This document shows positions 2,732-32,453 of a stretch of 32,453 nt of DNA, in pieces. Under the pieces are notes generated by a model. The model did no database searches and was not told the DNA's origin. It worked only from the letters and a program-made list of their open reading frames with translations. Each line of letters starts with the position of its first letter. Within the stretch, counting starts at the first letter, position 1. This DNA comes from a virus, in the IMG/VR virus record IMGVR_UViG_3300028612_000045, positions 1 through 32,453 of that record; one strand, written 5' to 3'. The position numbers and the translations under genes are program-made.

Positions 2732-3625
2732 ATGGCTGAAGGAACTGGGTCCGTTGAGGCGGGCAACCCAGGGGAAGCTACCGCGCCCTCTGGTGAGACA
2801 AGCGCAGACGTTACGGCAGTATCGGGTTCGCCGCTAACGACCGAGCCCAAAGCGTCCTGGCTCGACGGGGTGACAGACCCCGCGACGAAGGCTTGGGCAG
2901 AGGCGAAGGGACTCCAGAACGGGAGCTTCGAGAACGTCCTTGGGAGTTACCACAATCTTGAGAAGATGGTCGGCGCGGATAGGGCGGGGCGTACCATCAC
3001 CCTGCTTGGCGACGACGCCACCCCCGAAGAACGGGATACCTACTTCAATAAACTAGGCCGACCCGAGAGCGCCGCGCAGTATTCCGTGACGTTACCCGAG
3101 GGGCAGACCGACGATACCCGTTTGAACATGATGCGGAACAAGGCGCACGAACTCGGCATCTCCGACGCACAGTTCTCCGGTCTTGCCGAGGCCGACGCGG
3201 CGTATCTCTCCGCTACGATTCAGAGCGTTGATGATGAGGCGGTTGTCTCTGCCTCTGACGCGGAAGCGCAGTTGCGTACCGAGTGGGGCGCGGCGTTCGA
3301 CTTGAAGGTTGCGGGTATCGACGTGGCTGCGCATAAGTTGGGGCTGTCGGTGGACCAACTCGACGGTCTGCGTAAGGCGCTGGGTCCCGTTGGAGCGATG
3401 AAGTTCGTGGATGGTCTGAACACCAAGATTGGCGACCACAGTTATGACGAGGGTGAAAAAATTATCCCCGGTCACCGGACGCCCGCGCAAGCCAAGCAGG
3501 AACTGGCTGACCTGACCATGAACAAGGAGTTCCAAGACGCCTGGATGGATAGACAACACCCCGGTCACAAGGCGGCGGTTGAGAAAAAAGCCGCGCTTGC
3601 CCGTCTGGTAACGGGCATCATCTGA
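2732..3625 (+). CDS. Capsid assembly scaffolding protein
   Basis: 297 residues, acidic and alanine-rich, lying between the portal block and the major capsid protein, the standard place for a podovirus scaffold. It has a disordered N-terminus rich in Gly, Ala, Thr and Glu (residues 1-45), then a segment WLDGVTDPATKAWAEAKG, followed by GSYHNLEKMVGAD and a 'GRPESAAQYSVTLPEG'-type stretch. These are typical of phage capsid assembly proteins that template the prohead and leave before DNA enters. The C-terminal end is basic and helical (HPGHKAAVEKKAALARL), as expected for the coat-binding end. The start follows AGGA at 2721-2724. The stop shares ATGA with the next small gene. Confidence 0.85.
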   Translation: MAEGTGSVEAGNPGEATAPSGETSADVTAVSGSPLTTEPKASWLDGVTDPATKAWAEAKGLQNGSFENVLGSYHNLEKMVGADRAGRTITLLGDDATPEERDTYFNKLGRPESAAQYSVTLPEGQTDDTRLNMMRNKAHELGISDAQFSGLAEADAAYLSATIQSVDDEAVVSASDAEAQLRTEWGAAFDLKVAGIDVAAHKLGLSVDQLDGLRKALGPVGAMKFVDGLNTKIGDHSYDEGEKIIPGHRTPAQAKQELADLTMNKEFQDAWMDRQHPGHKAAVEKKAALARLVTGII

Positions 3626-3979: not shown

Positions 3980-4846
3980 ATGTCAAACGAAATCCTAGAC
4001 TGGTCAGTTATTGACTATAAATCGACTGTTGAGCATCTGCTCCAACAGCGGGGGTCTAAGTTTCGTGTAGCGGTTATGGAAGAGAGCTACCACGGTAAAA
4101 GTGGTGCGGCTGTCAACCAATTGGGCGCGGTGACGGCGCAAGCCAAAACCACACGCCATGCCGATACTCCGCTCATCGAAACACCCCAAGATAAACGCTG
4201 GGTCTACCCCACGGATTACGAATGGGCAGACCTGATTGACGATCAAGACAAGTTACGCATAATCGCTGATCCCACTTCTCCCTATGCTATTAATGGGGCG
4301 ATGGCTTTGGGCAGGGCGATGGACGATCTGATCGTTGCGGCGGCGACAGGAGTCAGTAAAACAGGTGAAGATGGTACTACCTCAACATCTTTTCCGGCTG
4401 CTCAAACTGCCAGTACGACATCTGGTGGTCTAACGGTCGCTAAACTGCGTGAAGCCATGCAGTTGCTTATCGCGGCTGAAGTCGATGTGGACAATGAGCC
4501 TCTGTTTTGTGCCATTGGCGCACAACAGCATGACGATCTACTTGGCGAGACCCAGGCGATTAGCCTCGATTTCACCAACAAGCCCGTCTTGGTTGATGGA
4601 CGTATTAAAGCCTTCATGGGTTTTAATTTCATCGACAGCCAGCGTCTTGCTATTTCTGGTACAGATCGCACCGTCATCGCTTGGGCGAAATCTGGCCTTC
4701 ACCTTGGAATCTGGAACGATATCAGTGTTCGGATTTCAGATCGCGCCGACAAGTCTTACTCAACCCAGGTCTACGTCAAGGGAACCTTTGGCGCTACCCG
4801 TGTTGAAGAGAAAAAAGTCGTCGCAATTACTTGTTCGGAGGCTTAA
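3980..4846 (+). CDS. Major capsid protein
   Basis: 288 residues, directly after the scaffold gene and a long leader with AGGAAGG in front of ATG. The sequence, with its RGSKFRVAVMEESYHG, QDKRWVYPTDYEWADLID and PYAINGAMALGRAMDD segments, fits the phage capsid family in which a short (about 290-330 aa) HK97-fold subunit is used with a separate scaffold. It forms the icosahedral shell. Codon choice (frequent GCT, CGT, GTT) and lower GC than the flanking genes fit a highly expressed gene. It ends with GGAG just before the next start, and a strong hairpin terminator lies after that next gene, so the two appear to form one transcription unit. Confidence 0.88.
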   Translation: MSNEILDWSVIDYKSTVEHLLQQRGSKFRVAVMEESYHGKSGAAVNQLGAVTAQAKTTRHADTPLIETPQDKRWVYPTDYEWADLIDDQDKLRIIADPTSPYAINGAMALGRAMDDLIVAAATGVSKTGEDGTTSTSFPAAQTASTTSGGLTVAKLREAMQLLIAAEVDVDNEPLFCAIGAQQHDDLLGETQAISLDFTNKPVLVDGRIKAFMGFNFIDSQRLAISGTDRTVIAWAKSGLHLGIWNDISVRISDRADKSYSTQVYVKGTFGATRVEEKKVVAITCSEA

Positions 4847-5363: not shown

Positions 5364-5939
5364 ATGACCGACGCGGTGAGCATCTGCAACCTCGCCCTAC
5401 AACGGGTCGGCTCGAAGACTATATCCGCCCTGTCCGAAGACACCACGGCGGGCCGAGCGTGTAATCGTGTCTACGCACAGGCCCGCGACAGTGAACTCCG
5501 CGCCCATCCGTGGGCGTTTGCGCGTGAGCGGGTCAAGGTTGCGGCGGATAGTACAAACCCGGTGTTCGGGGCGGCAAGGCGTTATGCTCTCCCCTCAGAT
5601 AGTCTGAGAATACTCCCGACGAACGGGGTGGGCGGTACGGATACGCAGGACGATTTTGAGGTGTTCGGGAGGTTTATCCACACCGACCACAGCACCCCCA
5701 TTAACCTGAATTATGTTAAGCGTGTTACCGATGAGAATACGTTTGACGCGCTGTTCGTGGAACTCCTGATCGCCCGTATTGCCATGGACGTATCGGAGAA
5801 GGTGACACAGTCAAACAGGAAAAAGGACGACGCTCGAGTCCATTACAAGGAGGTTCAGAAGGAGGCGCGGCGGGTCAATGCGTTCGAGCGCCCGCCACAG
5901 AGACCCCCCGTGGACGCTTGGGTAAATGCGAGGCTTTAA
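5364..5939 (+). CDS. Tail tubular protein A (T7 gp11-like)
   Basis: 191 residues, close to the T7 gp11 size. It forms the adaptor ring that joins the portal to the nozzle. Family hallmarks are visible: SICNLALQRVGSKTISAL near the N-terminus, then RACNRVYAQARDSELRAHPWAFARER, a common start of gatekeeper proteins, and RRYALPSDSLRIL. The start has AGGAG 8 nt upstream. The stop is immediately followed by the GTG of the tail tubular protein B gene, its usual partner. Confidence 0.9.
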   Translation: MTDAVSICNLALQRVGSKTISALSEDTTAGRACNRVYAQARDSELRAHPWAFARERVKVAADSTNPVFGAARRYALPSDSLRILPTNGVGGTDTQDDFEVFGRFIHTDHSTPINLNYVKRVTDENTFDALFVELLIARIAMDVSEKVTQSNRKKDDARVHYKEVQKEARRVNAFERPPQRPPVDAWVNARL

Positions 5940-9121: not shown

Positions 9122-9621
9122 GCGGTGTGGAACCAGCCCTCGTGTTCAAGATTCTTGGTTTTGCGATGTCCGCGATTGGTCAGATTCAGGCTGGCATTGA
9201 CACGCAGAACGCCGCCAATTTCAACGCCCAGGTCGCGTATAACAACGCCCACGCCGCGCGCTTGGCTGGGCTTGAGAAAGGTATGCGCGAAAAACGCCTC
9301 GCCATGAAGCGCGCCGGAACGAATCGCGCGCACGACCCGGATAAGATGGACCTGTTGGAGAATACTGCCATGGAGGAGGAGTTGGCGTTTCAGTCCATCA
9401 TCCACGCTGGTGAGGTTCAGGCGACGGGTTTTGAGAACACCGCCCGTCTTGATATCAGCAAAGGTAAGGCTGCGAAGCGAAAGGGCTTCTTCGACGCGGC
9501 TGGCACGGTCCTCATGGGTGGGGCGAAGGCGTTCGGTGGGGCCGGTGTCCCGCCGGTTACTACCACCCCCGGATTTGGGGACGTTCTTTCCTTAAAGGGT
9601 ATAGGTGCTGGGCCAATATAA
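9118..9621 (+). CDS. Internal virion protein (T7 gp14-like)
   Basis: 167 residues from ATG 9118 (ATGA overlap with the preceding stop); an upstream start at 9052 lies inside the GNAT-like gene and is unlikely. The protein opens with a hydrophobic segment (VFKILGFAMSAIGQIQAG) then a long alanine/asparagine-rich helix (NAANFNAQVAYNNAHAARLA) and glycine-rich end (GTVLMGGAKAFGGAG). This 'Gly/Ala start, QNAAAxxNAQxAxxNA helix, second helix' layout is the pattern of gp14-like ejection proteins, which pass into the host and line the DNA channel through the outer membrane. Its location between the gp13-like gene and the large internal proteins agrees. Confidence 0.7.
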   Translation: MSGVEPALVFKILGFAMSAIGQIQAGIDTQNAANFNAQVAYNNAHAARLAGLEKGMREKRLAMKRAGTNRAHDPDKMDLLENTAMEEELAFQSIIHAGEVQATGFENTARLDISKGKAAKRKGFFDAAGTVLMGGAKAFGGAGVPPVTTTPGFGDVLSLKGIGAGPI

Positions 9622-12218
9622 TGGCAAAATTCACTTCATTCGACGCCCCGACAGAAGTCGCTGGACCAATTAAAGTTCGCCGCGCGACGGCTGATGACTT
9701 CGGTATCGGAAAAGAGATAGTCGCTGTTGGTTCATCTATTACAGACTTTGGGAAGGTTCTCAAAGAAAGAGAAGACAAACGCTCTATCACATCAGCGAGG
9801 GCGCAGTTCTCCGAGTTTCAACTTAAATTTCAGAAAGATGAGATTCTGCGGCAGAGCGCCGCGCCTGTGGGCGCGCCCGGTCATTTTGAACAATCGAAAA
9901 GGGCGTTCGATGACGGCATAGGTGAACTTACGAGAGACATGAATGATATCCAGAAGTTCGCCTTATCTGGTGTCATCGCCACGGCTAGGGTCGGGAACCT
10001 AACCACCTCCATGCGGTTCCAGGCACAGAGTATAGTCAAAGGTGATCTGCATGATATTTCGGTGATTAAAAAGGGTATTAACGCACAGCTATATTCAGGC
10101 ACACTGAATCTCGAACAAGGTCTGGAGTTGTTTAGGGACGCCCTAATCGACAGTACTATTGGCGCAGACGGACAGCAGGATTTGGTAACGAAAGCGTTAC
10201 CTGTTTTTCGTAAGCAAATACTTGATGGAGCATTAGTAGAACCCTTAATAGGTCTTAAACGTCTGCGGGAAGGGGGCTTCACAGGTTTCCCCCCTGATGA
10301 GTTAGTCCAATTTAAAAAGGACTTAGTAACCCGCATAAATGGTACAGCTAAACGGCGTAAGGCCGAACGGGTTGCCAAGGCTGCTCAAACTCACGCTACG
10401 GCTTTCGACTTGGCGACGGGGGTGGGAAGTCTTGCAGAGGTGGACGCCGCCAGCGTGGGCCTTCCTCCAGATGTCAGGAATATGTTTCGCAAACTAGCGA
10501 TGGACCGGGACCGGCCCGTGCGGACTATCGAAGAAAAGAATGCGGCCAGCGCCGACCTGTTAGCCCGTTACGCTGAACTTGGGGTGAAGATAAAGAAGGG
10601 TAGGCGGTCTTCAGACGCGGCTTTAGAAGACCTCTTAAAGTTTCAGAGAGATGTCACTAACCTTGTGTCGGAGGGTTTAGTTTCATCCGGTGAGGCACGG
10701 CGCGTTGTCCGGAATGTTGAAGAAATTCTCCAAAAACGGATAGGTGATGCTGGCGCGGGTATCGACGGGTGGGACTTCTTTGACATTTATAATCAAACAC
10801 CGTTCAACATAGGTATGGACCGGGTAAACGAATATATTAATGATAATAGTCTTGGCGCTGCCGCGCACGTCGATGTTGCCCGCCGCTTCCATGCGTATCT
10901 TGACAGCGCCGGGGTCTCACAGGGTTCTGAACAGACGGAAAGCCGGGATGAACGAGTTAATAATTTAGCGGATTTAGCTATCAAAGACTACATTAAGGCA
11001 GAAACCCCCGCAACCAGAGGATTGTCGGACGTACCGAACGCGATTATCAGTAACGGTAAAGTCCGACCGGGGGCACCGGGTAAGCGTGACCTGAAAAGTT
11101 CCAGAAGCGTTGGGGGTAACACCCGCATAGAGTATGACAGGATCAGTAATACCTACGGCAGAGTAACCCGTGACAAAGACGGCAACGTCGTTGACTTTGA
11201 ACAAATAACCAAAAAGGAAGCCCTGGCCCCGCCGTCTACTCCGGTATCATCGAGCCTTAACCCCGCTGACGGTAGAGTGTTGATCGACCCGTTGACTACC
11301 TTGGGCGCGCGCGACGGTGAAGATGGCGCATCGACCCCAGCGCCGGGTCCTAGACTGGGCGAAGTGGACGCCGGAATAGTGATGATTGATCCAGACCGGG
11401 AACCGGGTGAGGCTGAAGATGGCGCATCGACCCCAGCGCCGGGTCCTAGACTGGGCGAAGTGGACGCCGGAATAGTGATGATTGATCCAGACCGGGAACC
11501 GGGTGAGGCTGAAGACGAAGACCAGTTTCACCAGCGGTTGGCGAAGGCGGTCGATGAGGAAGTGCAAGCCGGAACAGAGCTGATTGATCCAGACCGGGAA
11601 CAGGGTTCATTAACCAGGATACCCCCTTGGAGACAGGTCATACCTTCAGAACAGGCCATCTCCCTCGTCCAAGCTGATCTCCTGGTCAATGAAGGCACGG
11701 GCGATAACTTGACCGGCATCCCGACAGGCGAAGGTGGCATAACCGAAGCCCGGAAATTGGAGATCGAACGGAGGAAAGGGCGTCCGCTGACAGATGAGCA
11801 AGCCCGTAATGAGGCTGTCCGCGAAGACAGCGTGGCGCTGCATGACAATATGCAGGGGTTCGACGTACTCAGCCCCCCAGTACAAGCCGCTGTCCTCGAC
11901 CTTGCCTACTCCGTTGGTATTAACAACGTGCTGGACCCTGCCGAGTTCGGAAGTCTACGCATAGCCATAGCCGAAGGCCACGCACCTAAAATCCTTGAGG
12001 AAACCTTGGACACCGCCATCGTGGATGGTAAGTCGGTCAAGGGTCTGGCTCTAAGGCGGGCGCGTATGTTCAACAAAGCCAGCACCGATTTCCGCATTAC
12101 CGCCGTCGAACAGTTGCCGGATGGCACCATAAACTATCTGTCGGGGACAGAGGTTCTGCTCACGTTCAGACGCCCTCGTCACCCCCGCAGTGAAGCCGGT
12201 AAAGAAAGCGTTAATTAA
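9621..12218 (+). CDS. Internal virion protein with C-terminal lysozyme-like domain (gp15-like position)
   Basis: 865 residues; ATG 9621 overlaps the preceding stop. Residues 1-550 are helical and charged, as in ejected internal proteins. Residues 567-630 are two identical 32-residue units encoded by a perfect 96-bp tandem repeat, with a shorter third echo ending in IDPDREQG at about residues 653-662. From about residue 680 the segments LLVNEGTGDNLTG, IPTGEGGIT, RPLTDEQARNEAV and AAVLDLAYSVG resemble a phage lysozyme/GH24-type fold, with a candidate catalytic Glu in NEGTG. A peptidoglycan-cutting domain in an ejected protein would open the cell wall at infection. The linker before it is Pro/Gly/Asp-rich. 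The domain call comes from motif reading only. Confidence 0.7.
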   Translation: MAKFTSFDAPTEVAGPIKVRRATADDFGIGKEIVAVGSSITDFGKVLKEREDKRSITSARAQFSEFQLKFQKDEILRQSAAPVGAPGHFEQSKRAFDDGIGELTRDMNDIQKFALSGVIATARVGNLTTSMRFQAQSIVKGDLHDISVIKKGINAQLYSGTLNLEQGLELFRDALIDSTIGADGQQDLVTKALPVFRKQILDGALVEPLIGLKRLREGGFTGFPPDELVQFKKDLVTRINGTAKRRKAERVAKAAQTHATAFDLATGVGSLAEVDAASVGLPPDVRNMFRKLAMDRDRPVRTIEEKNAASADLLARYAELGVKIKKGRRSSDAALEDLLKFQRDVTNLVSEGLVSSGEARRVVRNVEEILQKRIGDAGAGIDGWDFFDIYNQTPFNIGMDRVNEYINDNSLGAAAHVDVARRFHAYLDSAGVSQGSEQTESRDERVNNLADLAIKDYIKAETPATRGLSDVPNAIISNGKVRPGAPGKRDLKSSRSVGGNTRIEYDRISNTYGRVTRDKDGNVVDFEQITKKEALAPPSTPVSSSLNPADGRVLIDPLTTLGARDGEDGASTPAPGPRLGEVDAGIVMIDPDREPGEAEDGASTPAPGPRLGEVDAGIVMIDPDREPGEAEDEDQFHQRLAKAVDEEVQAGTELIDPDREQGSLTRIPPWRQVIPSEQAISLVQADLLVNEGTGDNLTGIPTGEGGITEARKLEIERRKGRPLTDEQARNEAVREDSVALHDNMQGFDVLSPPVQAAVLDLAYSVGINNVLDPAEFGSLRIAIAEGHAPKILEETLDTAIVDGKSVKGLALRRARMFNKASTDFRITAVEQLPDGTINYLSGTEVLLTFRRPRHPRSEAGKESVN
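11319..11510 (+). repeat. Perfect 96-bp tandem duplication inside internal virion gene
   Basis: Two identical copies, 11319-11414 and 11415-11510, in frame and each encoding 32 residues that begin EDGASTPAPG and include VMIDPDREPG. The copies match at every base I compared, so the duplication is recent or is kept uniform by recombination. A diverged partial copy (GATTGATCCAGACCGGGAAC) recurs at 11582-11601. Confidence 0.95.
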
Positions 12219-28235: not shown

Positions 28236-28512
28236 AAAATCACTCCAGGACTACCTCTTAAAGAGAGCCAAGTTCAACGGCATTTATGCCCGCAAGGTAG
28301 TCGCCGTGGGTCATACGGGCTTTCCCGATGTGCTGCTGGCGGTTGACGGGCACGCCATATTCGTAGAACTGAAGTCCCCAACAGGGCTAGGACGCCTGTC
28401 GAAAAAGCAGGGGCGCGAGATCGAGCGGATGGTAGAAGCTGGGCTAGTCGTCCTCATCATAGACACGGAGGAAAAAGTCGATGAACTCATCGTCGAAATC
28501 TTTGACGCCTGA
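28225..28512 (+). CDS. VRR-NUC domain nuclease
   Basis: 95 residues, a stand-alone VRR-NUC module. The signature is GFPDVLL (Asp35) and FVELK (Glu48, Lys50), then LSKKQ with Gln62, forming the PD-(D/E)XK-type site. Stand-alone phage members act as structure-specific endonucleases, probably on branched replication or recombination intermediates. Starts within the polymerase gene and ends within the helicase gene (32-bp overlap), and this VRR-NUC/helicase order is common in phage replication operons. Confidence 0.92.
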   Translation: MASEKSLQDYLLKRAKFNGIYARKVVAVGHTGFPDVLLAVDGHAIFVELKSPTGLGRLSKKQGREIERMVEAGLVVLIIDTEEKVDELIVEIFDA

Positions 28513-29740
28513 CCAGATCAAAGCCATCGAACGCCTGTTCGAGTACGACCACACCATCCTTGTCGCCGGGACGGGCGTCGGCAAGACGGTCATTGCCCTG
28601 ACCGCCATCCACGATCTGACACAGGAGAACTATCTGACCAAGGTTATCGTCGCTGCGCCCGCCAAGGTCATCGAGAAGATGATCTGGCCGCGCGAGGCGG
28701 CGAAATGGGAACACCTGACGGGGCTTCGTATCGTCCAGCTTGAGGGAACCGCCCCGCAACGCATCAAGACGCTCCTGGCGAACGAGGCCGACATCATCCT
28801 GGTCAGTTTAAACAACCTCAATTGGCTGTTGAAACAAGACCACGGGTGCGACGGTGTCGTCATCGACGAGCTATCGAAGGCGGCGGGGAAGTGGACGCGC
28901 GGGCTGAAGTCAAAGAAGCTGGCGGGCTATCTCACATGGCGAGTCGGCATGACCGCCACACCCGTCTCACAAAATTTTGAAAAATTATACGGGATGTGCC
29001 GCATCATCGATGAGGGGCGGGCGCTTGGCACGAACAAACAAAAATACCTCGAGGAATATTTCTACCCGGACTACCAGGGGTACAACTGGACCCTGAAAGG
29101 CTTCGCGGACGCTTCAATCACATCCAAAGTGCGCTCTCTCGTCCACCTCGTCACCGATGACAAGGTCAAAGTACTGCCACCTCTGCGTGAGAGCGTCTTA
29201 AAATTCGATATGCCAGCGGAAACGCGGAAAATCTACAACGAGATGAAACGGCACATGGTCATCGAAGATCGTGAGAGTTCAAACCAAGCCGTTAAATCCG
29301 GCGTCTTGCGACAGCTAGGGTCTGGCTTTTATTATCAGGACAACGGCGTTGCCACCGCGCTCGACACCGCCAGAGCAGACGCTGCCGGTCATTGGGCCAA
29401 GAGTCTGAAGGGTGCGCCGGGGATCGTCTTCTATGAGTTTGTCGAACAGCTTGTTCAGCTTGGGCGACTGCCCGACAACATCATGCGGGCGCAAATACAG
29501 TCGATGTCACACGGCATCGATGGACTCCAAAATATACATAATTCGGTATGTTTTTTCCAGCCGCCGTGGAGCAGGGACCAGCGAGAGCAAAGTGTCGGCA
29601 GAATCTGGCGGCAAGGCCAGACCAAGCCCGTCACGATCACGACCCTGGTCTGCAACGACACGCTGGACGAACTGGTCATGGCTCGCGTCGAGGACCGTGG
29701 TCAGTGGATGAAACTGTTTAAACAGCATTTGGAAGGGTGA
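28481..29740 (+). CDS. SNF2/DEAD-like superfamily 2 helicase
   Basis: 419 residues, ATG inside the VRR-NUC gene. Motif I AGTGVGKT (Lys35), motif II VIDELS (Asp129-Glu130), motif III GMTATP (156-161) and motif VI QSVGRIWRQGQ (370-380) are all present and in order. This is the compact SNF2-like helicase seen with phage polymerases that lack a DnaB-type partner. It likely acts as an ATP-driven DNA translocase with the polymerase or nuclease. The stop is directly followed by the unusual GGYNN tract. Confidence 0.9.
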   Translation: MNSSSKSLTPDQIKAIERLFEYDHTILVAGTGVGKTVIALTAIHDLTQENYLTKVIVAAPAKVIEKMIWPREAAKWEHLTGLRIVQLEGTAPQRIKTLLANEADIILVSLNNLNWLLKQDHGCDGVVIDELSKAAGKWTRGLKSKKLAGYLTWRVGMTATPVSQNFEKLYGMCRIIDEGRALGTNKQKYLEEYFYPDYQGYNWTLKGFADASITSKVRSLVHLVTDDKVKVLPPLRESVLKFDMPAETRKIYNEMKRHMVIEDRESSNQAVKSGVLRQLGSGFYYQDNGVATALDTARADAAGHWAKSLKGAPGIVFYEFVEQLVQLGRLPDNIMRAQIQSMSHGIDGLQNIHNSVCFFQPPWSRDQREQSVGRIWRQGQTKPVTITTLVCNDTLDELVMARVEDRGQWMKLFKQHLEG

Positions 29741-29750
29741 GATACCACAC

Positions 29751-30108
29751 GGCTTGGCAAGGCTTGGTGTGGCGGGCGTGGTAGGGCGCGGCGACGTGTG
29801 GTCGGTTGTGGTGTGGCATGGCAGGTCCGGCACGGTCAGGTATGGTCAGGTGCGAGGGGTTTGGCGAGGTAGGGCAGGTGAGGTTGGGCGCGTTCGGGCT
29901 TGGTTAGGTGTGTCCCGGTGCGGCAGGTAAGGTTAGGCACGGCACGGAGGGGTCTGGCAGGGTCCGTTGCGGCACGGCAGGTAAGGCAGGGTCCGGCCCG
30001 GTGGGGTAGGGTACGGCATGGCGAGTTCAGGCGGGGCGGGTGGGGTGTGGCTCGGTGGGGCGAGGTGTGGCTTGGTGCGGTGCGGTGGGGCCGGTAGGGT
30101 ACGGCAGG
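29751..30108 (+). repeat. Degenerate GGYNN pentamer array, non-coding, strongly G-rich on + strand
   Basis: About 358 bp in which GG recurs nearly every 5 nt: units such as GGCTT, GGCAA, GGTGT, GGCAC, GGTCA, GGTAC. By hand count 29761-29880 has 63 G, 26 T, 19 C and 12 A. The unit frame slips by one base at several points, so the pattern is not a codon effect, and no ORF here has a credible start or product. The 9-mer GGCAGGTAA recurs at 29922, 29976 and 30103. On the other strand it reads as NNRCC units. It separates the helicase gene from the next early gene. No known class of phage element fits; see findings. Confidence 0.85.
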
Positions 30109-30127
30109 TAAAATAGAATTACGCGAC

Positions 30128-30148
30128 AGAACTGGATGGTCCGGTTCT
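30128..30148 (+). other. Hairpin in the leader of the gene at 30179
   Basis: Inverted repeat AGAACTGG (30128-30135) and CCGGTTCT (30141-30148), 8 bp with one G-T wobble, loop ATGGT. Not followed by a T-tract, so more likely an operator or an RNA structure upstream of AAGGAG (30166-30171) than a terminator. Confidence 0.4.
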
Positions 30149-30178
30149 GGTCTTACAAAGCCAAAAAGGAGATATCCA

Positions 30179-30796
30179 ATGGCAAAGACACAAACAATTA
30201 CAATACCCGCTATGAAGATCGAGACGATTGAGATTTCCTTAATCGGTGACAGCCCTTTGATCACGCACAAGTGGTCAGAGAAAGCTAAGAAGCAAATGCT
30301 GGACAACCAGATGAAGATACCCAAGGTCGCCAGGGAAGCTAAAGACCCCTGGCAAGACTTCTGCGACAGTATGTACTGGCTCGACGGGCAACCGGAAAAA
30401 GCGACACAAAAAGACATAGACGATGGTCGTTTCGGCTTTCCGCTGATTGGCTTCAAAGCCGCTGCCGTGACCGCGTGTACCTCTCACGACATGACCAAGG
30501 TCGCTGCCCGCCAATCCTTCCATGTCTTGGGCGACATGGCGCAGATTGATGGTGACGCCCCGGTGATGCGCGAGGACATGGTACGTATCGGCATGGGCAC
30601 GGCTGATCTGCGCTATCGCGGGGAGTTTAGACAGTGGCGCACCACGTTCAAGGTTGCGTTCAACGCGGGGGTGATGTCAGCCGAACAAGTCATCAATGCG
30701 TTTAACGTCGCTGGTTTTGGTGTTGGCGTTGGTGAATGGCGTCCCGAGAAGGACGGCCAGAACGGACGTTTTCATGTCGCCGTAGAGGGAGAATAG
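30179..30796 (+). CDS. Conserved phage protein of unknown function (RAMP-like Gly-rich loop)
   Basis: 205 residues with AAGGAG before ATG. Segments VSLIGDSPLITHKWSEKAKKQML-like start (here SLIGDSPLITHKWS), FGFPLIGFKAAAVTACTS in the middle and FGVGVGEWRPEKDGQNGRF near the end match a widespread phage family that I know only as hypothetical. The last segment, with its alternating glycines, has the look of the glycine-rich loop of RAMP/ferredoxin-like RNA-binding proteins. That hint is weak and structural only. It is the first gene after the GGYNN array and directly before the gene at 30799, ahead of the primase, so a DNA replication role is possible. Confidence 0.75.
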   Translation: MAKTQTITIPAMKIETIEISLIGDSPLITHKWSEKAKKQMLDNQMKIPKVAREAKDPWQDFCDSMYWLDGQPEKATQKDIDDGRFGFPLIGFKAAAVTACTSHDMTKVAARQSFHVLGDMAQIDGDAPVMREDMVRIGMGTADLRYRGEFRQWRTTFKVAFNAGVMSAEQVINAFNVAGFGVGVGEWRPEKDGQNGRFHVAVEGE

Positions 30797-30798
30797 AG

Positions 30799-31269
30799 AT
30801 GCCTATGGTCTTCGAGTTAAGATTAGGAGCGCATCTCCGTGCCGGGTTAGACCCCGGCACGGTAGGCGCGGAGTTGACCCGTATCCGTGAACAGAACGGA
30901 GAGTTAACACCTGAAGTCGTCCTGATGGAAGCAAGGAAGCACAACAACACGCTTCATGCTCAATTCGATTGGGATGATACCGTTGCCGCTGGTAAATGGC
31001 GGCGCGAACAAGCCGCCGAACTAATCCGCGTCATCCTCATCAGAGACGACGGGGTCGAGAACAGCCAAGCAATAAGAGCGTTTGTCAAACTCGAGAACAC
31101 GAGGTCGGAGCCGTATCGCCCCGTTGTCGATGTTCTGGCGGACCCTGAAATGCGTTCGCGGCTGTTGGAAAAGGCACACAAGGAACTAGACGCCTGGACA
31201 CGGCGCTACACCAACCTTGAGGAGTTTGCCGGGTTGATCAAAACCATTAAGAACTGGCGGGGCAGGTGA
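30799..31269 (+). CDS. Conserved phage protein of unknown function
   Basis: 156 residues from ATG 30799 with GGGAGA upstream; an in-frame start at 30736 overlaps the preceding gene and is unlikely. Segments LTPEVVLMEARKHNNTLHAQFDWDD and AAGKWRREQAAELIRVI are typical of a phage family of unknown function found between polymerase and primase genes. The C-terminus is helical (DAWTRRYTNLEEFAGLIKTI). The stop shares one base with the primase start (TGATG), indicating coupled translation with it. Confidence 0.75.
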   Translation: MPMVFELRLGAHLRAGLDPGTVGAELTRIREQNGELTPEVVLMEARKHNNTLHAQFDWDDTVAAGKWRREQAAELIRVILIRDDGVENSQAIRAFVKLENTRSEPYRPVVDVLADPEMRSRLLEKAHKELDAWTRRYTNLEEFAGLIKTIKNWRGR

Positions 31270-32453
31270 TGCCTGTAAAAGCCAAAGAGTTTCTCGACAT
31301 CATCTTCGACAATCTCCACGACGATGAGTATGTCTGTGTGTCCCGTGCCATTGAGAAGAAGGATGGCACGGGCGTCTGGTTCAAATCCTACAAACGTGAC
31401 GCCCGACAGTTCCGCAAATGGAACCCAGCGGAACAGGCGCAAGCGTGGTACTTTTGCGTCTCAACGGTCAGCGGAGAGTTAAATGAAAACGCAACGATGG
31501 TTGGTCGCGGGCGAAGACATCTCCGAAGGTACTTTGCTCTCGTCCTTGACGACATTGGAACAAAAGGCAATCCACCGCCTGTTGAGCCGTCTTGGAAAAT
31601 TGAGACTAGCCCTAGAAACTACCAGTGGGGATATCTCCTTGACCCTGGCGGGGACTTCAGCCGCCATGAAGCTCTTGCCGAATTTTGTCATCAGCAAGGC
31701 TGGGGTGATGCGGGCGCAGGGGGCAGTTATCGCCTCATGCGTGTTCCAGGAAGCGCAAACCTCAAGCCAGGGCGGCAGCTTTTCCGTTCAGTGGTCACCC
31801 ACTGGGAGGACTATGTTTGGTCCTTGGATGAGCTTGCTGAAGACCTAGGCTGCGACTTCGACCTCATCGAGGTGCGCGATGTCGAGGTCCGCGAAAAGAC
31901 CGGCGGCGCGGCGGCGATGGACGGCATAGACCCCATGCTGGACTGGCTGGTGGACAATGGGCATGTCGTCAGGGACAGCGGCGGTGAATGGGTTGATATC
32001 GTCTGCCCATGGGCCGACACGCACACGACCGGATCGAACACTGCTGGCTACTCTCCGCTAGGGCGGGGGTCAGGCAAGTTCGTTCAGACCCGTGCGTTCA
32101 ACTGCATGCACGAGCATTGTGTTGACCGCAAGTTGGCTAAGTTCCGCGAGTGGGCCACCAAGCTAGGCGCGCCCAGCGTGTCGGGCTACGACCCGTTGCC
32201 GTGGCTACAGGATAAGTACACTTACGTCTCTACCGGCCAGATGGTCTACGATCTGCACCAACGACCTGTCGGCGGGGTGTGGAGATGGTCGTTGGCCGAC
32301 TTCACCAAAGACCACCCTGGCAAGATTACACCGCCGGGACGAGACGGCCCCGTCACCCTTGCCACCGCGTTCATCGAAGACGAGAACACCCGCAAGGCGG
32401 TGGACACCATCTACGAGCCGGTCTCGCGGGAGCGTGATACCGGGATTGTCGAG
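31269..32453 (+). CDS. DNA primase/helicase, RepB-type primase N-terminal part (3' truncated)
   Basis: The frame from ATG 31269 stays open for 395 codons to the window edge. The N-terminal half has FALVLDDIGTKG (Asp94-Asp95, the candidate metal site), TSPRNYQWGYLL and RLMRVPGSANLKPG (157-168), which is the order seen in RepB-type primase domains of phage primase/helicases. A zinc-binding part follows: CPWADTH (Cys246, His252) and NCMHEHC (Cys279, Cys284). The missing C-terminus would be expected to hold a superfamily 3/DUF5906-type helicase. It would prime replication with the family A polymerase. The call is by motif order; catalytic function is inferred. Confidence 0.85.
   Translation, partial: MPVKAKEFLDIIFDNLHDDEYVCVSRAIEKKDGTGVWFKSYKRDARQFRKWNPAEQAQAWYFCVSTVSGELNENATMVGRGRRHLRRYFALVLDDIGTKGNPPPVEPSWKIETSPRNYQWGYLLDPGGDFSRHEALAEFCHQQGWGDAGAGGSYRLMRVPGSANLKPGRQLFRSVVTHWEDYVWSLDELAEDLGCDFDLIEVRDVEVREKTGGAAAMDGIDPMLDWLVDNGHVVRDSGGEWVDIVCPWADTHTTGSNTAGYSPLGRGSGKFVQTRAFNCMHEHCVDRKLAKFREWATKLGAPSVSGYDPLPWLQDKYTYVSTGQMVYDLHQRPVGGVWRWSLADFTKDHPGKITPPGRDGPVTLATAFIEDENTRKAVDTIYEPVSRERDTGIVE

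Follow-up and report, generated by a model that had tools for sequence, protein, structure and literature searches.

Organization of the locus

The window (the whole stretch of DNA analyzed here) spans the 32,453 bases of a virus record, with relatives in IMG/VR and among mycobacteriophages and Gordonia phages. Between a helicase stop codon at 29740 on the 5′ side and the start codon of a small gene at 30179 on the 3′ side, it carries an array of GGYNN pentamers that runs in the direction of the genes. The features of the locus are named here after VIPR (Viral Interference Programmable Repeat), a system described in a preprint of April-June 2026 (PMC13142463).

29751..30111, + strand: array of about 74 GGYNN units for vrRNA (guide RNA) (autocorrelation, unit parse, and vipr linkage)
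30125..30152, + strand: hairpin between array and vipr, candidate 3′ tail or leader
30179..30796, + strand: vipr (phrog_4652), 205 amino acids, single-domain RAMP protein (profile match and fold model)
30736..31269, + strand: probable vap (vipr-accessory) gene, 177 amino acids, phrog_15946 (co-occurrence with vipr)

The preprint describes vrRNAs as 9 to 16 YNNGG repeats, with GGY fixed and NN hypervariable, adjoining a phage RAMP gene. The NN letters are reported to pair with double-stranded DNA, one target base being skipped between pairs, and the skipped base is usually a codon wobble position; vrRNA expression, Vipr binding, and recognition of double-stranded DNA are reported for SUSP1 (PMC13142463).

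Two observations concern other parts of the window. At 11318-11515 a 96-bp unit is present as two identical copies in tandem, inside a long open reading frame (9621-12218) in a region of large open reading frames. A 917-amino-acid open reading frame at 5940-8693 matches the Pfam ubiquitin-activating E1 FCCH domain in three stretches (6e-19), most likely as a beta-rich phage structural module.

Structure of the array

The original prediction of about 70 GGYNN units at 29751-30108, with a pyrimidine preferred at the third position, is borne out: the unit parse gives 74 units and an end at 30111, with GG at the start of 67 units and a pyrimidine in third place in 72 of the 74. A count of 63 G against 19 C in 29761-29880 proved exact. 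GG-GG autocorrelation over 29751-30108 has its highest peak at lag 5 (57 observed versus 23.1 ± 4.0 shuffled; z, 8.5), with extra peaks at lags 10, 15, and 20, and the period-5 signal survives comparison with shuffles of the same composition, as 0 of 1,000 dinucleotide-preserving shuffles reached the lag-5 value. As also predicted, the array holds no believable open reading frame; 5-nucleotide units with one-base steps interrupt every frame, and a reading as coding sequence is ruled out. The parse includes irregular units (GAGG and GTYNN), and some guides could therefore be decayed.

Departures from the 5-nucleotide period had been described as single-base phase slips. The steps in length are real but not random, being mostly specific 4-nucleotide units, usually GGCA, at 29771, 29820, 29873, 29922, 29976, 30035, 30089, and 30103. 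Their spacing is mostly 49 to 59 nucleotides (overall about 44 to 59), and they delimit six full blocks of 9 to 11 five-nucleotide units and two partial blocks (about seven guides). We infer from these steps that the GGCA units are guide boundaries, and the block limits below follow from them.

29751..29774, + strand: incomplete opening block of 4 units followed by GGCG (unit parse)
29775..29823, + strand: guide block v1; NN = GT AG GC GA GT CG GT GT AT; ends with GGCA
29824..29876, + strand: guide block v2; NN = CC AC CA AT CA GC (irregular GAGG) TT GA AG; ends with GGCA
29877..29925, + strand: guide block v3; NN = GA TG GC CG TT TA GT CC GC; ends with GGCA
29926..29979, + strand: guide block v4; NN = AA TA AC AC GG CT AG CC GC AC; ends with GGCA
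29980..30038, + strand: guide block v5; NN = AA AG CC CC GG AG AC AT GA CA GG; ends with GGCG
30039..30092, + strand: guide block v6; NN = GG GT TC GG GA GT TT GC GC GG; ends with GGCC
30093..30111, + strand: array 3′ end, GGTAG GGTAC GGCA GGTAA

The same punctuation recurs in relatives, many of whose arrays also terminate in GGCAGGY. Across 290 arrays adjoining vipr, GGCA accounts for 695 of 956 four-nucleotide units under a parser with no built-in preference for it, and the distance from one GGCA to the next has a median of 54 nucleotides, 62% of distances falling within 43 to 60 nucleotides. The entropy of NN in these arrays is mostly 3.7 to 3.9 of a possible 4 bits and is lower (3.4 to 3.5 bits) beside GGCA. 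Such spacing suggests a way in which one continuous array could be split into guides. We tentatively propose a contiguous, tail-less layout in which GGCA every 44 to 59 nucleotides, with biased flanking NN, defines or processes single guides, while recognizing that this proposal could well be wrong. The “staggered arrays with overlapping vrRNAs” mentioned in the preprint may be the layout found in the window (PMC13142463).

No structured 3′ tail was seen between guides within the array. The hairpin at 30125-30152 is retained in the sister contig L121, except that one U-G pair is replaced by C-G, a comparison of two sequences only. A search of 28500-32453 against Rfam at E values of up to 1 gave no match, including to hammerhead ribozymes, which lie between the guides in one form of VIPR array, although a diverged ribozyme could escape such a search.

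The Vipr protein and its probable accessory protein

The gene following the array had been taken for a conserved early gene. It is not a general one but the protein partner of the array, and it belongs to a family (phrog_4652) annotated as of unknown function. A profile of 93 family members matched the “SUSP1 Vipr protein” of PDB entry 36pp with an E value of 6.9e-18; the family profile is needed for this strong match, as the single-sequence search with the window protein gave a weak one (E = 2e-4). The AlphaFold2 model of the protein has a pLDDT of 96.1, and all 45 Foldseek matches of this model at E values of ≤0.001 were CRISPR RAMP proteins or complexes. Alignment of the model with Csm3 by VIA-align gave a Z score of about 11 over about 150 residues, and three glycines (G179, G183, and G196) are invariant in the family. 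The protein fits the description of Vipr as a small RAMP that has one RRM core and a G-loop. By profile and fold model, the gene at 30179-30796 is thus identified as Vipr, with the Cas7/Csm3 RAMP fold, and the protein is predicted to polymerize on vrRNA.

The gene at 30736-31269 is probably a vap gene, judging from its neighborhood: a phrog_15946 homologue lies beside vipr in 124 of 209 vipr-bearing loci, always on the same strand. Its 177-amino-acid product was modeled with confidence in most parts (pLDDT, 89.5), but neither a solved relative by sequence nor a confident fold match in the PDB was found for it.

Linkage of arrays to vipr

A pattern of eight GGY at 5-nucleotide spacing was found in at least 120 viral stretches, and a stricter pattern was found in 59 bacterial genome stretches that represent many phyla. 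With loci picked by these DNA patterns alone, the Vipr family was encoded in 89 of 120 viral stretches among the matches listed and in 39 of the 59 bacterial stretches. Many of the exceptions have a short match only or an array that sits where the contig ends, and some short bacterial matches are probably GC-rich coding sequence. Neither Vipr nor an array was present in any of 130 viral loci (1.14 Mb) fetched with unrelated patterns. When ten complete viral records of up to 74 kb were scanned, the pattern matched nowhere but at the vipr locus, and a reversed control pattern gave no match.

Arrays in vipr-bearing loci are on the strand of vipr in 290 cases and on the opposite strand in 6; they lie mostly downstream of vipr and otherwise upstream. 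Most of 80 relatives of the downstream gene have arrays, all on the gene strand, and arrays were found in all three fetched named relatives (mycobacteriophage and Gordonia phage). Relatives therefore do not have ordinary, nonrepetitive sequence at this place, which would have spoken against the original prediction. Nucleotide similarity is of no use for finding the element, as blastn against the phage collection returned no match for a relative's array or for the window's own region. VIPR is spread across many bacterial phyla, in their phages and prophages.

Some annotated genes of mycobacteriophages and Gordonia phages probably encode no protein and are instead guide arrays. Gene 43 of Gordonia phage Pipp, a “hypothetical protein” (L209:5605-5874), nearly coincides with a GGYNN array at 5611-5833, and the “hypothetical protein” encoded by gene 48 of Mycobacterium phage Donkeykong (L211:4480-4866) nearly coincides with an array at 4499-4842. 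Both are probably spurious open reading frames, and the same error may occur in records of other relatives. An unusual placement was seen at L038:6934-7168 (minus strand), where GGYNN arrays directly follow tRNA-like 3′ ends and a Vipr-family open reading frame overlaps the stretch that they occupy.

Guide turnover

L121 and the window are nearly identical in the flank between array and vipr. Within the arrays GGY is kept and most NN letters are changed, as would be expected of guides under changing selection. Guide v5 is largely conserved in L121 (about ten units); as the remaining guides of the two phages are different, its conservation suggests selection. Guide v6 and an L121 guide agree in 14 of 16 letters when the parses are compared by eye.

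One-base-skip matches and targets

The published reading rule was examined with 804 guides, all taken from arrays adjacent to genes for Vipr homologues. The DNA searched was fetched from phages and genomes and totaled 2.03 Mb; arrays in it were masked, and loci fetched by skip-1 patterns were excluded. Skips of 0 to 3 bases were compared, and guides with shuffled NN order (10 runs) served as the control. With one base skipped, there were 17 matches of at least 16 net matched letters (shuffle mean, 5.4), 7 of at least 17 (mean, 1.3; maximum, 5 in 10 runs), 4 of at least 18 (mean, 0.2; maximum, 1), and 3 of at least 19 (mean, 0.0). Skips of 0, 2, and 3 bases gave no excess over shuffles with the same guides and DNA. 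In all seven of the best skip-1 matches, the skipped base falls on the third codon position in a credible gene. This cross-check in relatives of the window, made from sequence only, supports the published one-base-skip mechanism but is not independent proof of it, given how few the matches are and that the sequences are related.

Two of these seven matches lie in vipr genes of other phages. One is between a guide from a Mycobacterium szulgai genome stretch (L240) and Donkeykong vipr (L211); it runs over 20 consecutive letters, or 21 with the next first letter included, and may be a case of VIPR directed against VIPR. In the other, a guide of L119 matches vipr in L069. In the alignment of the L240 array (starting at 3514, + strand) with L211:5304-5342, ten successive codons are matched at positions 1 and 2.

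Pattern searches of viral contigs with the window's own guides v3, v4, v5, and v6 gave no matches or matches at chance level, and no target was established. The few matches of v6 at 17 to 19 of 20 letters include three near-identical prophage stretches, in two of which the match lies opposite a repressor-like gene; none is claimed as a target, since about two such matches are expected by chance.

Proposed function and alternative explanations

The array almost certainly encodes VIPR guide RNAs, each block being a putative guide that Vipr would read as NNx to repress genes of competitors. The array would be transcribed with its operon, and each block of about 50 nucleotides (9 to 12 GGYNN units) would serve as one guide. 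Vipr would coat the RNA with, we infer, one RAMP subunit per 5-nucleotide unit; the protein would hold the fixed GGY, leaving the two NN letters free to pair with target DNA. With one target base skipped between pairs, 10 units would address a 30-base target (NNxNNx…) in which the skipped x usually falls at a codon wobble position, and target-bound complexes would act as repressors of genes in competing phages, prophages, or satellites. For the window's system, RNA production, DNA binding, and repression are postulated by analogy with what the preprint describes (PMC13142463).

The original prediction offered a replication origin based on an R-loop or G-quadruplex, with a G-rich transcript staying on its template and priming replication. 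The strong G bias of the non-template strand and the position after helicase and polymerase genes would suit an origin, but the cumulative GC skew climbs steadily without an inflection at the array, and arrays of relatives track vipr and not replication genes: homologues of the window's helicase and polymerase accompany vipr in 2 of 209 loci, and these upstream genes are, by this comparison, incidental neighbors. Some relatives have several arrays around vipr, one-base-skip matches in wobble phase have no place in such a model, and variation of NN is not needed for either structure, yet NN is near maximal entropy and behaves as guide information. We consider an origin very improbable. We would say the same of a platform on double-stranded DNA, a regulatory or nucleoid element whose GG dinucleotides are bound cooperatively by a protein. 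It would account for the regular 5-bp spacing of GG, but the 4-nucleotide GGCA steps shorten that spacing and so push GG further out of helical phase (10.5 bp per turn), and both the strand bias relative to vipr (290 versus 6) and a partner with a fold known for gripping guide RNA speak against it. Two elements of the earlier proposals persist: cooperative protein binding along the pentamers is expected at a 5-nucleotide pitch, and the form in which the array works is probably its G-rich transcript.

That the array descends from working VIPR guides no longer used in this phage is suggested by the irregular units in v1 and v2 and by two late boundaries that read GGCG and GGCC instead of GGCA. 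Such decay is nevertheless unlikely, given that both vipr and vap have intact, open reading frames, that the pyrimidine is kept in 72 of 74 units, and that v5 is conserved between two phages with otherwise different guides. A local accident of replication slippage would explain the low complexity of the sequence but not the occurrence of the same degenerate code, tied to one protein family, in phages and prophages across many bacterial phyla; moreover, the array contains weak 10- and 20-nucleotide rows only and no exact tandem repeat. Shuffles and array-bearing relatives rule this accident out, and we give it practically no credence.

Comparison with known systems

Class 1 CRISPR-Cas systems resemble the locus in the RRM-based RAMP fold that Vipr shares with Cas7/Csm3 and in the periodic interruption of guide-target pairing. 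The period is 5 nucleotides in the window's array, in contrast to 6 in class 1 systems, and the VIPR guide is read two letters at a time, passing over one target base. Unlike a CRISPR array, with near-identical direct repeats of tens of nucleotides and spacers, the window's array has no such repeats, and no cas gene is present among its identified neighboring genes. TRAP (trp RNA-binding attenuation protein) sites, in which RNA triplets every 5 nucleotides are bound by an oligomeric protein, share the 5-nucleotide pitch in RNA with bound protein. However, Vipr is an unrelated protein, and a TRAP target is one site of about 11 repeats whose spacer letters carry no information.

The closest likeness is to VIPR itself, known from phage SUSP1 and, as type II, from a Pseudomonas fulva prophage (PMC13142463; PDB 36pp), and the original view that no described phage element looks like this has been overtaken by that description. 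The likeness comprises GGY/NN pentamers, an adjacent small RAMP gene, the phage setting, and, for guides of the clade, a one-base-skip code with wobble alignment, and it probably extends to an accessory gene. The type II vrRNAs described there are about 100 nucleotides long, each with an invariant structured 3′ tail, whereas in the window about seven guides run together, divided by 4-nucleotide GGCA units and tail-less within the array. VIPR has been proposed to be ancestral to CRISPR effectors and to represent the first noncontiguous guide code; the window's array is a further case of a kind already published, with an array layout that is itself worth testing.
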